Below, one piece after another: positions 120 through 4,278 of a stretch of DNA of 64,000 bases. The notes under the pieces are model-generated. The model saw only the letters and a program-made list of their open reading frames with translations, was not told where the DNA came from and did not search any database. The position numbers and the translations under genes are program-made. This DNA comes from Crassaminicella profunda (GTDB lineage Bacteria; Bacillota; Clostridia; Peptostreptococcales; Thermotaleaceae), in assembly GCF_019884785.1 (NCBI RefSeq), contig NZ_CP082326.1, forward strand, positions 3,775,355 through 3,839,354. The letters are read 5' to 3'. How positions within the stretch are numbered: position 1 is the first letter of the stretch; every line of letters begins with the position of its first letter.

Positions 120-947
120 ATGAAAAAAAGGTTTCTTTATATTTTATTATTTGTTATTCTTCTCATTAGTTTTAACCTACCATTCTGGAACACTTTAAAA
201 AGCTACACAATTATGTATTTTTATGACAAAACACAAAACACCCTCCATGAAAAAGGAATCTCCTTTTATATTCCCAATGGCTTAAAAACCTTAAAATCAG
301 ATTGGTATCCTTTCATGCTTCATTATGATGCTAGTGAATATTTTTCTCAATATATAAAAAAAAATAGTTCTTTACAGGTATTGTATTCCTTTGGGTCTTT
401 CGATTTTTCTAAAGGATGTTCTCATTTTTATGATTCTTCTTCTCCTTATTATGCTGCCTTTTATGGTGGATATGCCTTGTTTTGTGAAGATCATCCTTAT
501 GGTTTTGATAAAAACGGAAATATGAATATAGAAGAGATTACAAAAGTACCTATGTTTGATCAAACCTATCTGGTTCTTCCTTCTTTAGGCTGCCCAAAGG
601 ATAAGATTTATTTTCAATCAACCGTAGAAAAAATAGAAACCAATAAAAATTATATTGGCATAAATGGATGGACAAAAATAGACGCAAAAATAAAAACCAA
701 TGCTCCTATACACAAAACTGAAAACAAAAAAAATATGGGCTATATTCAATATGGAAAACCTCATAAAAGTTTTTTCAATAAAAATGAATACCCTCTAATT
801 TCTTTAAATGGTCGGATCTATGTAAAATACATAGATGAGTTGAAAGGAACTTTCTTTTTATACATCATGGCAAAAGATATACAAACAGTAAATCTATGTG
901 ACAAAGAACTCTTGTCTCAATCAAATATTTCTATCAACAATCATTAA
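120..947 (+). CDS. hypothetical secreted or membrane-anchored protein
   Basis: I do not recognise this 275-residue protein. Residues 1-25 form a basic start (MKKR) followed by one hydrophobic segment, which fits a signal anchor or uncleaved signal peptide. The rest is polar and rich in Tyr, Phe, Lys and Asn, with only a few scattered cysteines and no catalytic motif I can name. The start is supported by an AAGGAG ribosome site just upstream. Its 3' end overlaps the last 4 bases of the convergent kinase gene. No partner gene lies on the same strand, so its role is open. Confidence 0.75.
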   Translation: MKKRFLYILLFVILLISFNLPFWNTLKSYTIMYFYDKTQNTLHEKGISFYIPNGLKTLKSDWYPFMLHYDASEYFSQYIKKNSSLQVLYSFGSFDFSKGCSHFYDSSSPYYAAFYGGYALFCEDHPYGFDKNGNMNIEEITKVPMFDQTYLVLPSLGCPKDKIYFQSTVEKIETNKNYIGINGWTKIDAKIKTNAPIHKTENKKNMGYIQYGKPHKSFFNKNEYPLISLNGRIYVKYIDELKGTFFLYIMAKDIQTVNLCDKELLSQSNISINNH

Positions 948-1807
948 GAACATCTCGCTACACGTTTTCTTGTAGGTAAAAATATAGTAAATACAGTTCC
1001 CACGCCTTCATAACTTTCTACCGTAATTCTTCCTTTATTTTTATTAATAATCTGTTTTACAATGTTGAGACCATACCCATGTCCGTCCCCTTCTTTTGTT
1101 GAGTATCCTTTTTCAAATATTTTTTCATACATTTTCTCTGATAAAATAGGATAGGAATTCCCTATTAAAATCACACATTCTTCCTCATGCTCAGCAATAT
1201 CTATAATAAGAACCTTCTCTTCCTCTTTGCAATCCTCTAATTCATAAATGGCATTATCTATCAAATTAAATAATACGGTACAAATATCCATAGAATCTAT
1301 ATATAAATTCTCTAAGGAAGTACTAATATCTAACTCTACCTTTATTCCTTTGCTTTCTGCAATAGTACACTTTCTTCCTAAAGTAGCAGCTATTTCAATA
1401 TTTTCAATTTTAGATATAGAAAAAACACCTTCAACCTTTTGTGAAATTTTAAAAATATAATCTAATGCTTTTTTACTCTGTTCCAATTGAAGCATCCCAG
1501 CAATTAAGTTTAAATGATTGATAAAATCATGCTTTTGCCCTTGTAATGCATCAATGACTTCCTTAGAATTGTTTAGTTTAATAATACCTTCTTTTTCTTT
1601 TCTTAAAAAATATAAAATGTAAAATATACAAATAATTGCACTAACACCCAAGAGATTGATTACAATTCCCATATAATAGGGATATTGAAAATTAACAATT
1701 ACATTCCCCATCAAATTTATGATAGTTCTATTAGTCAAAAACATGACAATAAAACTCTGTAATAATATTAAACCTATCAATATATACGCTCGAACAGTAA
1801 CCTTCAT
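944..1807 (-). CDS. AgrC-like sensor histidine kinase (SpoOB-type/GHKL)
   Basis: A 287-residue membrane kinase with only two TM segments (about residues 8-27 and 47-68). It continues with an SpoOB-like dimerisation helix carrying the phospho-acceptor His in QKHDFINHLN, then a GHKL ATPase domain with an N-box (NLIDNAIYEL) and a G-box (GHGYGLNIVKQ). This architecture is that of AgrC, which senses a cyclic peptide and normally phosphorylates AgrA. The start chosen is the second Met of the open frame, because AAGGA lies 8 bases upstream of it and abuts the first. It is the last gene of the agrB-agrD-membrane protein-kinase run. No response regulator is adjacent. The short sensor region suggests that it works with the 160-residue membrane protein encoded just upstream. 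Confidence 0.85.
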   Translation of the reverse strand: MKVTVRAYILIGLILLQSFIVMFLTNRTIINLMGNVIVNFQYPYYMGIVINLLGVSAIICIFYILYFLRKEKEGIIKLNNSKEVIDALQGQKHDFINHLNLIAGMLQLEQSKKALDYIFKISQKVEGVFSISKIENIEIAATLGRKCTIAESKGIKVELDISTSLENLYIDSMDICTVLFNLIDNAIYELEDCKEEEKVLIIDIAEHEEECVILIGNSYPILSEKMYEKIFEKGYSTKEGDGHGYGLNIVKQIINKNKGRITVESYEGVGTVFTIFLPTRKRVARCS

Positions 1808-1821
1808 ATGAATCATCCTTA

Positions 1822-2304
1822 TCAGTTATTTTCATGAAATTGCTTAAAATCAAGAATAGTAATTTTGAAAACATATCCTATTATAAATCCAATAATCAAA
1901 AGAACATCAGATAATGCAGTTGCTAGTAATAATCCTCCTGGTCTACTCGTCAATGTGATAGGGTCAAATTGAAACAATTTCAAGACAGGAAAGAAAAATA
2001 CTCCTTCTCCCCATAATAACAATAAAAAGCTAATCAATCCAGCAATCATACTATCTAAAATTCTTTGTTTTCCAATGAATCTGAGTAACATTATAAAACA
2101 GATAAATAATATAAAAATATGAGTTCCAAAAGGAATATTATTTTTAATATAAAAAACTCTAATACCATATATTAATATCCCTAGTATGATAGTAATCCAC
2201 ATTATTACTTTATGCTTAAGGCGTATTCCTATAAGACCTAATCCTGCCCCTGTCATTAAGAATGCCTCTATAAAATGTCCTAATAATTTTTCTACTATAT
2301 CCAT
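1822..2304 (-). CDS. agr-locus integral membrane protein, possible detached AgrC sensor domain
   Basis: A 160-residue, very hydrophobic protein with about five predicted TM segments (roughly residues 12-30, 34-51, 60-76, 83-106 and 124-150) and short polar loops. It has no enzymatic motif. It sits 14 bases upstream of the histidine kinase and downstream of agrD on the same strand, so co-transcription is likely. Its opening (FIEAFLMTGAGLGLIGI) resembles the N-terminal membrane part of many clostridial GHKL kinases. Five TM here plus two in the kinase would add up to the six or seven usual for an AgrC sensor. That split-sensor reading is inference; a dedicated transporter or immunity protein is the alternative. 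Confidence 0.7.
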   Translation of the reverse strand: MDIVEKLLGHFIEAFLMTGAGLGLIGIRLKHKVIMWITIILGILIYGIRVFYIKNNIPFGTHIFILFICFIMLLRFIGKQRILDSMIAGLISFLLLLWGEGVFFFPVLKLFQFDPITLTSRPGGLLLATALSDVLLIIGFIIGYVFKITILDFKQFHENN

Positions 2305-2332
2305 ATACTCTTCCTTTCATTTTCAACAATTT

Positions 2333-2371
2333 CTAATGTCAATAGGGCATTTTATACCCTATTGACATTAG
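2333..2371 (-). other. 15-bp perfect hairpin between agrD and the downstream genes
   Basis: Perfect inverted repeat: arms 2333-2347 and 2357-2371, 9-base loop. On the minus strand no T-run follows the second arm, so it is more likely an mRNA stability or processing hairpin that lets agrB-agrD be expressed above the kinase genes than a strong terminator. Confidence 0.7.
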
Positions 2372-2374
2372 CCC

Positions 2375-2500
2375 TTACATGTCTTTTAGCTGCTCCGGTA
2401 ATTCTGGCTGATAGTTTATAGTAGAGCATGCCCCTGTTGCACTTGTAAAGGCTAGAAATGTAAGAACTACCATTGATAATTGTAATAACCTTCTCATCAT
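2375..2500 (-). CDS. agrD: AgrD-like cyclic-lactone autoinducer precursor peptide
   Basis: This 41-codon gene encodes a basic amphipathic N-terminus (MMRRLLQLSM), a small-residue stretch ending in ATGAC, a peptide core that starts at the single Cys (residue 25, CSTINY), and the acidic C-terminal tail QPELPEQL. The Cys core followed by a Q/P/E tail is the AgrD signature: AgrB cleaves before the tail and closes a thiolactone between the Cys and the new C-terminus. It lies 12 bases downstream of agrB with a strong G-rich ribosome site, as in agr operons. The exact ring size and N-terminal trim site cannot be read from sequence; a ring starting at Cys25 and ending near Tyr30 is inferred. Confidence 0.88.
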   Translation of the reverse strand: MMRRLLQLSMVVLTFLAFTSATGACSTINYQPELPEQLKDM

Positions 2501-2512
2501 TTGTATCCCCCC

Positions 2513-3136
2513 TTATTTCCTTAATATTTTATTTAGTAAAATATCTGACTGTTGCCAGAGTTTATACCCTATTTTAGTTATGGAAAAACATTGACATAAA
2601 ATCCCTAAACTAGATGCAAGCATGATCCCATGAACCTTGTTAAAAAGCAAATAATATCCTACATTAAAAAAACACCACACTAACAAAATAACTAATGATT
2701 TTACTTTTAATTTCTTTATTTTTTCTATAGAAGTTATAGGCTTTTGTGGTGTATCTGCAGGTGCATATTTACTAATACTCCATAATCCAAATAAAAAAAC
2801 AAACACGATTGCTGATAATATAATTTCTTTAGTTGGTACAACCATCTTTGTCAAAAATCCTAAAGCATTGGCTACAATCATACTAAAAATTGCACAATTC
2901 CACATGCTTTCACAATGAGCCCCTCCTGAACAAGACCGTAGTATGGATATAGTCAACATGATGATTAACACATACGAAAAAATCCCTAAAGCTTTAGCGA
3001 GAACAAGAGCTAAGAAATATCCTAAAAACATACTCATAATTAAATGCAAAGAATATCTCAAAATAGCTTCTTGTCCTTCATCCAGCTCCAATTGATTTTT
3101 GTACACACCTAAGATTTTCCCTATACACTTTTCCAT
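2513..3136 (-). CDS. agrB: AgrB-like peptide-processing membrane endopeptidase
   Basis: A 207-residue polytopic membrane protein that cleaves and cyclises the AgrD precursor. The AgrB catalytic pair is visible in SGGAHCES (His74 and Cys75 with the start used here), followed by hydrophobic segments covering most of the rest. The open frame extends 14 codons further, but AAAGGGGA precedes the internal ATG at 3136, so MEKCIGKILG is the better start. agrD begins 12 bases after its stop. Together with agrD this forms a complete peptide-signal production module. Confidence 0.92.
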   Translation of the reverse strand: MEKCIGKILGVYKNQLELDEGQEAILRYSLHLIMSMFLGYFLALVLAKALGIFSYVLIIMLTISILRSCSGGAHCESMWNCAIFSMIVANALGFLTKMVVPTKEIILSAIVFVFLFGLWSISKYAPADTPQKPITSIEKIKKLKVKSLVILLVWCFFNVGYYLLFNKVHGIMLASSLGILCQCFSITKIGYKLWQQSDILLNKILRK

Positions 3137-3261
3137 CCAAAAATTCCCCTTTAATTGACAATAGTAAAATACTCCCATTTTTATGTTACAACAATATTTA
3201 ACTTCTCCATAATTATGGATATTCCTCTAATATTTTGTAAATTTTTCGTGTTTTTTCAAAA

Positions 3262-3292
3262 GAAAAACATATAGCCCTTATGGACCATATGT
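3262..3292 (-). terminator. intrinsic terminator of the bioY-bioB operon
   Basis: Arms 3282-3292 and 3268-3278 pair over about 11 bp including a G-T pair. On the minus strand a T-rich run follows. The hairpin begins at the bioB stop codon. Confidence 0.8.
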
Positions 3293-4278
3293 TAAACTTC
3301 AAACCCTTGTTCTTTGATCATCTTTATATCCTCTGTTATTTTATTACCTACAGTAGTTAAATAATTTCCTACAAGAGCAGCATTTACCCCTGCCTTGAAT
3401 CCAACATGTTGCATTTCCCCTAATGCAATTCTTCCTCCAGCATAGCGAATGGAACCATCTGGTATCACCAATCTAAAAACAGCCATAGTCTTTAATGCCT
3501 TAAGAGGGGATATTTTCTCATTATTTTCCAGTGGCGTTCCTTTGATAGCATTTAATATGTTAATAGGAACAGATTTAATTCCTAATTCTTTTATTTCAAA
3601 AGCCATCTTTACCTGATCTTTACATGTCTCTCCTAGCCCTATGATCCCGCCACAACACAAATCAAGTTCTGCTTTTTGCACATTTTTAATGGTATTAATT
3701 CTATCCTCATAGGTATGAGTCGTGCAAATGCTCTCATAAAATTCCTTACTTGTTTCTACATTATGATGATACATACTCACCCCTGCTTCTTTAAGTTTTA
3801 TGGCCTGTTCATAAGATATAATACCATGAGATGCACATATTTTTAAATTTGTATCCATCTTAAGCCTTTGATAGATTTTTAATAGCTTTTCAAAATCCTC
3901 TTCCTCCATACCTCTTCCACTTGTAACCAATGAAAAACGATGTGCTCCATCTCTTTCCATTTCTAAAGCTCTTTTTAGAATTTTGTCATACTCTAATAAA
4001 TCATAGACTTCTACTCCTGTTTGATAATGACTAGACTGAGCACAATATTTGCAATCCTCAGAACATCTTCCACTCTTTGCATTCATAATGGTGCATAGAT
4101 CTGCTTGATTTCCTACAAATTTTTCTCTAACACTATTTGCTGCGTCAAAAAGAATCGTTAGTGTTTCTTCATCTTTTTCATCTATTTCCATTAACTTTAC
4201 TGCTTCTTCATAAGTTATTTGCCCCTCAGCTAATATTCTTTCCTTTATTTCTTTTATAAAAGTTTTCATTTTCTTCAA
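3292..4278 (-). CDS. bioB: biotin synthase
   Basis: A 328-residue radical-SAM enzyme that inserts sulfur into dethiobiotin to make biotin. The 4Fe-4S motif CSEDCKYCAQ is at residues 72-79 and is preceded by MNAKSGR, both diagnostic of BioB. Conserved YHHNVETS and the later RYAGGR segment, which carries the Arg near the 2Fe-2S cluster, are present. The length is normal for the family. It starts 3 bases after the bioY stop, so the two are co-transcribed. The earlier biotin genes (bioA, D, F, W) are not in the window, so dethiobiotin must be made elsewhere in the genome or imported. Confidence 0.97.
   Translation of the reverse strand: MKKMKTFIKEIKERILAEGQITYEEAVKLMEIDEKDEETLTILFDAANSVREKFVGNQADLCTIMNAKSGRCSEDCKYCAQSSHYQTGVEVYDLLEYDKILKRALEMERDGAHRFSLVTSGRGMEEEDFEKLLKIYQRLKMDTNLKICASHGIISYEQAIKLKEAGVSMYHHNVETSKEFYESICTTHTYEDRINTIKNVQKAELDLCCGGIIGLGETCKDQVKMAFEIKELGIKSVPINILNAIKGTPLENNEKISPLKALKTMAVFRLVIPDGSIRYAGGRIALGEMQHVGFKAGVNAALVGNYLTTVGNKITEDIKMIKEQGFEV

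Follow-up and report, generated by a model that had tools for sequence, protein, structure and literature searches.

A peptide receptor of the AgrC type, probably encoded as two genes in the agr locus of Crassaminicella profunda

AgrC is the textbook receptor of Gram-positive peptide quorum sensing and normally carries its six or seven membrane helices in one polypeptide. The agr locus studied here lies in a 64,000-nucleotide stretch of the Crassaminicella profunda genome (the window), and raises the question of how an agr peptide is received when the operon encodes a sensor kinase with only two membrane helices, preceded by a separate five-helix protein, and no AgrA. A first-pass annotation of the sequence had proposed that the two proteins together make one sensor. 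Our analysis led to the same reading, and we consider it very likely that the locus is an agr system whose AgrC receptor consists of two polypeptides.

The four genes were found as annotated, all on the minus strand. The gene agrB (2513–3136) encodes a 207-aa AgrD-processing membrane peptidase (PF04647, 124.9 bits against a cut-off of 23, E 3e-36), which is the only AgrB of the genome. It is followed by agrD (2375–2500), encoding the 41-aa precursor of the autoinducing peptide (TIGR04223, 33.1 bits against a cut-off of 19), and by the gene of the 160-aa five-helix subunit, here called P160 (1822–2304), which was characterized by AlphaFold, by profile matches to the N-termini of fused AgrC proteins and by HHalign. 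Only 5 nt further on lies the gene of the 290-aa two-helix sensor kinase (944–1816; SPOB_a 50.9 bits, HATPase_c 57.6 bits), with a possible second start at 1807. On the same strand, a promoter-like site is located 5' of agrB (3212–3241, TTTACA-18-CATAAT, 10/12), although such sites are no more numerous in the region than expected by chance, and a terminator-like hairpin with a 12-pair stem and a T-run separates the operon from the upstream bioB (3266–3293; two terminator-like sites seen in the region against 0.6 expected). Downstream, a convergent gene (120–947) overlaps the kinase gene by 4 bp and encodes a protein of unknown family, either exported or anchored. It was considered as an agr component and rejected: homologues occur in 20 of 291 genomes of the class, but adjoin a P160-kinase pair in three genomes only (G009 and G045 included) and are unlinked elsewhere, which places this gene outside the system.

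P160 itself matches no Pfam or NCBIfam model. Its AlphaFold structure (mean pLDDT 85) has five long helices at residues 2–24, 31–54, 61–76, 82–110 and 124–145, and the charges of the loops agree with an N-terminus outside and a C-terminus inside the cell. Neither a sequence search of the PDB (no match) nor a fold search with Foldseek (nothing at E below 1) identified a relative, absences that say little, and the best VIA Z of 5.4 is at the level that chance gives for helical bundles. Similarity to transporter or immunity families, which the first-pass annotation had named as an outcome speaking against a split sensor, was not found. A plasmid search with P160 and a phage search with AgrB gave no match, and a plasmid search with fused AgrC returned kinase-domain matches only.

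The evidence that P160 is the missing part of AgrC comes from natural one-chain proteins whose sequence runs through P160 and then the kinase. A search of the class with the P160 alignment retrieved two such proteins, of 458 aa (L101) and 469 aa (L103), each with agrB adjacent. In addition, 80 Clostridia agrB loci were drawn from an AgrB search without use of P160, and every protein of all loci was scanned with a P160 profile whose training set consisted solely of stand-alone proteins no longer than 215 aa. The profile matched 24 of the 75 fused seven-helix kinases, covering approximately their first 155 residues, in the comparison with N-terminal regions of clostridial kinases that the first-pass annotation had suggested. 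No match was obtained among 136 AgrB proteins or among 92 proteins with three to four helices; the four matches among 113 other proteins with at least five helices are all AgrC-like sensors located next to agr genes; two have no kinase, and the other two are truncated at the edge of their locus. Within the fused chains, profile positions 1 to about 150 are followed by a gap of a few residues and then by the kinase profile, which in most of the 24 matched chains starts at its positions 5–18. HHalign gave a probability of 98.9% for P160 against fused N-termini with a direct profile match; for fused N-termini lacking one it gave 96.4% (141 columns), but against AgrB 0.6%. When P160 is aligned with the fused proteins, its C-terminal residues (DFKQFHENN) coincide with their short cytosolic linker, and the split point corresponds to the cytosolic loop between TM5 and TM6 of one-chain AgrC. 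These sequence comparisons strongly support P160 as a homologue of the five N-terminal helices of AgrC.

An apparent fused gene of 255 aa in L222 proved to be an artefact of masked bases. AgrC-like proteins without a kinase (L178 5505–6317, L102 5307–6155, L165, L168 and L180) have 270–310 aa and seven or eight helices, are located beside agrB or an AgrD-like gene and end in a DHp-like helix that lacks the histidine; those of L178 and L102 match P160.

The kinase contributes the remainder. Its Pfam domains are SPOB_a and HATPase_c (also HATPase_c_5), i.e., a Spo0B-like DHp domain with the catalytic His96 and a GHKL ATPase; H96, N184, D187, N188 and the G box are invariant. AlphaFold (pLDDT 70, a lower confidence than for P160) predicts two membrane helices, the second continuous with the DHp helix. 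The best NCBIfam profile is DcuS/MalK, below its cut-off, and the DHp and ATPase family is common to the Spo0B-domain kinases of the DcuS/CitA type (PF14689); those proteins have an extracytoplasmic PAS domain, whereas the kinase of the window has none and a partner subunit instead. The kinase is homologous to AgrC from helix 6 on, although the equivalence of the first kinase helix and AgrC helix 6 follows from position and HMM extent, the sequence likeness alone being weak (a local HHalign of the two-helix regions gave only 13%).

Compared with AgrC of staphylococcal and clostridial agr (HPK10-type, including VirS-type relatives), the helix order is the same, and only P160 and the kinase jointly reach the six or seven homologous helices of AgrC, as five plus two. 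One-chain AgrC likewise combines a Spo0B-like DHp with a GHKL ATPase and is encoded with agrB and agrD, and the clostridial AgrC set, used as our reference, aligns end to end with P160 plus kinase. The difference is that here two genes encode the sensor, as two chains divided at the cytosolic TM5-TM6 loop. No description of a split AgrC was found in the open-access papers searched.

The two genes could in principle be the remains of a decayed AgrC, or an artefact of assembly, without function. The lack of an adjacent response regulator would fit such an explanation. However, P160 followed by a two-helix kinase, each gene with its own start and stop, occurs in 12 of the 16 sampled genomes of the family (named relatives include Marinisporobacter, Anaerosolibacter, Geosporobacter, Thermotalea and Anaerophilus), which rules out a sequencing error. 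The pair directly follows agrB-agrD in nine of these 12; in G012 and G015 no agrBD is adjacent, and in G009 a more distant pair is located at the same site as in the window, between bioB and a homologue of the 120–947 gene. Between the window and three congeners, the ratio of third- to second-codon-position changes is about three in P160 and five to seven in the kinase, whose H, N and G motifs are, as noted, invariant. We therefore regard decay or artefact as scarcely credible. In comparison with the same congeners, the kinase (81–86% identity) is better conserved than P160 (70–72%) and AgrB (72–76%), a faster divergence such as sensor halves show.

The split is not peculiar to C. profunda, but common in Bacillota. 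A survey of agrB neighbours, proposed in the first-pass annotation, showed that both forms of the sensor occur: the 80 Clostridia loci comprise 54 fused, one split, six with P160 but no AgrC-type kinase, and 19 with neither. The split form is thus a minority in agrB-sampled Clostridia, while it is the usual form in the family of the window and frequent elsewhere in the phylum. A broader P160 profile detected the domain, counting stand-alone and fused forms together, in 157 of the 398 Bacillota genomes sampled and in 49 of the 148 searched within the order. Other Bacillota classes contain loci ordered P160-HK-AgrB-RR (L258, L262, L268, L270, L275 and L276) or (P160+HK)-AgrB-RR (L277, L278, L284–L287 and L290–L292), which show layouts and not frequencies, because they were selected by their P160 match. 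On a phylogeny of the kinase part, built from 28 split and 66 fused sensors, the state switches three times between split and fused, and well-supported branches force two of these switches; an enlarged tree (36 split and 82 fused) has eight, at least two of them forced. Such trees count changes and do not reveal the order of splitting and fusing.

Where the sensor is split, P160 is tied to the kinase more closely than to AgrB. All 28 two-helix kinases of the tree set adjoin P160, in agreement with the split-sensor proposal, which had been held to fail if P160 were always independent of kinases. The two genes are separated by a median of 4 nt (37 pairs, some repeats at locus ends included). Over 28 split loci, distances of P160 correlate with those of the kinase at 0.81 and with those of AgrB at 0.72 (partial correlations 0.58 and 0.23, respectively); the divergence of P160 thus follows the kinase more than AgrB. 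These values bear on a second explanation, in which P160 would take no part in sensing and would instead serve peptide production or self-immunity, as a helper of AgrB, an exporter or an immunity protein. Many P160 proteins do adjoin agrB without an AgrC-type kinase, as this would predict. Still, P160-kinase pairs persist where agrBD is not adjacent (L008, L010, L023 and L026), the distance correlations favour the kinase, and P160 resembles neither AgrB nor transporters or immunity families, which makes an accessory role very improbable.

Not every P160 relative comes with such a kinase, and the protein family is therefore not exclusively half of a kinase. Most genomes of the taxonomic family carry a 156-aa stand-alone paralogue (L232 7957–8427 in G000, L013–L022 and L024), usually located between amidohydrolase and ECF S-component genes, with no agr genes and no kinase. 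In G015, a LytTR regulator, P160 and a two-helix kinase immediately precede genes for a peptidase-type ABC exporter and an HlyD-like protein (L031 6841–12940); this split sensor, which lacks agrB, apparently serves a bacteriocin-type locus.

The signal to be sensed can be predicted in part. Among relatives, the leader of AgrD and its YQPELPEQL tail are conserved, while the core between them varies (CSTIN, CATLG, CSTCG, CSTVS, CTIIG and CTILG), which is what a private signal predicts. Alignment predicts a five-residue ring at AgrD residues 25–29 (2414–2428, minus strand), and the mature peptide is probably the ring Cys-Ser-Thr-Ile-Asn. The Geosporobacter AgrD (G010; L009 2173–2292) has the core TTITS, with Thr in place of the ring cysteine (AATTITSYQPELPEELM), and its peptide may therefore be a lactone and not a thiolactone. 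Between agrD and the sensor genes, the RNA can fold into a hairpin without a T-tail (2333–2371, minus strand; -26.2 kcal/mol, z -7.9). Strong hairpins at this junction are also present in L003–L007, L009, L011 and L012, so that all nine agrB-agrD-P160-HK loci of the family have one; the sequences differ, but pairing is near-full (z -3.4 to -9.9, eight scored). Since there is no T-run, the hairpin is perhaps an element of mRNA processing or stability.

From these results we infer the following pathway. AgrB would cut and cyclise AgrD, and the small ring peptide would leave the cell. P160, corresponding to AgrC helices 1–5 with its N-terminus and two loops outside and its C-terminus inside, would assemble in the membrane with the 290-aa protein, which would supply helices six and seven and the Spo0B-type kinase, into a physical complex equivalent to a seven-helix receptor. 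The receptor would presumably be a dimer of P160-kinase pairs, joined via the kinase. The peptide would be sensed mainly by the loops of P160, which would carry most of the ligand site, and the change transmitted through helix 7 to autophosphorylation of His96.

An alternative to this division of labour is that P160 is a separate regulator that does not itself bind peptide, while the kinase senses through its own two helices. P160 and the kinase would then resemble pairings such as KbaA-KinB or LiaF-LiaS. P160 has its own gene, related P160 proteins accompany unrelated enzymes, and a two-helix form of AgrC can stay active: residues 134–430 of S. aureus AgrC (TM5-6C; two helices plus kinase, 297 aa) retain autokinase activity and some response to peptide (PMC3841183). 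This truncation is close to the natural 290-aa kinase in size and layout, but it is man-made, and its missing N-terminal half is not supplied in trans (PMC3841183). Against the alternative, natural fusions put P160 exactly at the position of the AgrC sensor domain. Moreover, the outside loop 111–124 of the C. perfringens VirS kinase, implicated in peptide binding (PMC7492741), lies in the part equivalent to P160, where by numbering it corresponds to the TM4-TM5 loop at about residues 105–123. Collectively, we consider a separate regulator unlikely, and P160 as the front half of one receptor remains our preferred reading.

The output of this receptor would differ from standard agr, as AgrA is absent from the operon and has no spare in the genome. 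The first-pass annotation was correct that no response regulator, whether AgrA-type (LytTR) or other, is located beside the agr genes, whose neighbours are bioB and the unrelated convergent gene. None was found in the window's own clade either, whereas split loci outside it often have an adjacent regulator with Response_reg and LytTR domains. The genome holds 67 receiver domains. LytTR proteins, however, number just two, both paired with adjacent LytS-type kinases, and the sole other Spo0B-type kinase has its own regulator; hence, the partner is not a spare AgrA, and the phosphate would pass to a regulator at another site of the genome, of a type other than the AgrA-like LytTR proteins. In several clostridia, Spo0A is phosphorylated directly by orphan kinases (PMC11210211), and since Spo0A is present in the genome, it is a candidate acceptor, and no more than that. 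The agrB1D1 operon of Clostridioides difficile is likewise an agrBD operon without AgrA (PMC10602386). That operon has no sensor gene, and no receptor is known for it, whereas in the window the sensor is present as two genes.

P160 also occurs with outputs other than kinases of this type. In L108 (7068–8759), L113 (6712–8448) and L114 (2967–4634), P160-agrB-agrD is followed by a protein with five to six helices and GGDEF and HD-GYP domains, and the same layout is seen in L117, L119, L154, L257 and L272 (domains assigned by Pfam for L108 and L113, by motif search for the remaining loci). In L112, a protein with a similar N-terminus carries PAS-HisKA instead. These loci suggest that agr peptides are wired to c-di-GMP enzymes, and no description of agr with GGDEF/HD-GYP was found in the open-access papers searched. 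A broader reading, which we put forward tentatively and at somewhat less than even odds, is that P160 is a free-standing receptor module for autoinducing peptides that couples in trans to various outputs, namely kinases of the two-helix Spo0B type, PAS-HisKA kinases and c-di-GMP enzymes with GGDEF/HD-GYP domains, so that in many Bacillota agr peptides would control c-di-GMP or orphan-kinase pathways without AgrC or AgrA. If this holds, AgrC would represent a modular receptor in fused form.

The same cut between helices five and six recurs in many Bacillota, and the unnamed P160 family can therefore be recognised as the front half of AgrC; proteins so far without a Pfam model thereby gain a name and a likely function. 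No solved relative of the AgrC N-terminal sensor was found in the PDB and fold searches with P160; a 160-aa sensor subunit that folds separately would be ready for binding, structural and subunit-swap experiments that are hard with a single chain. It would also provide a template for finding the missing agr receptors in operons that seemingly have none.
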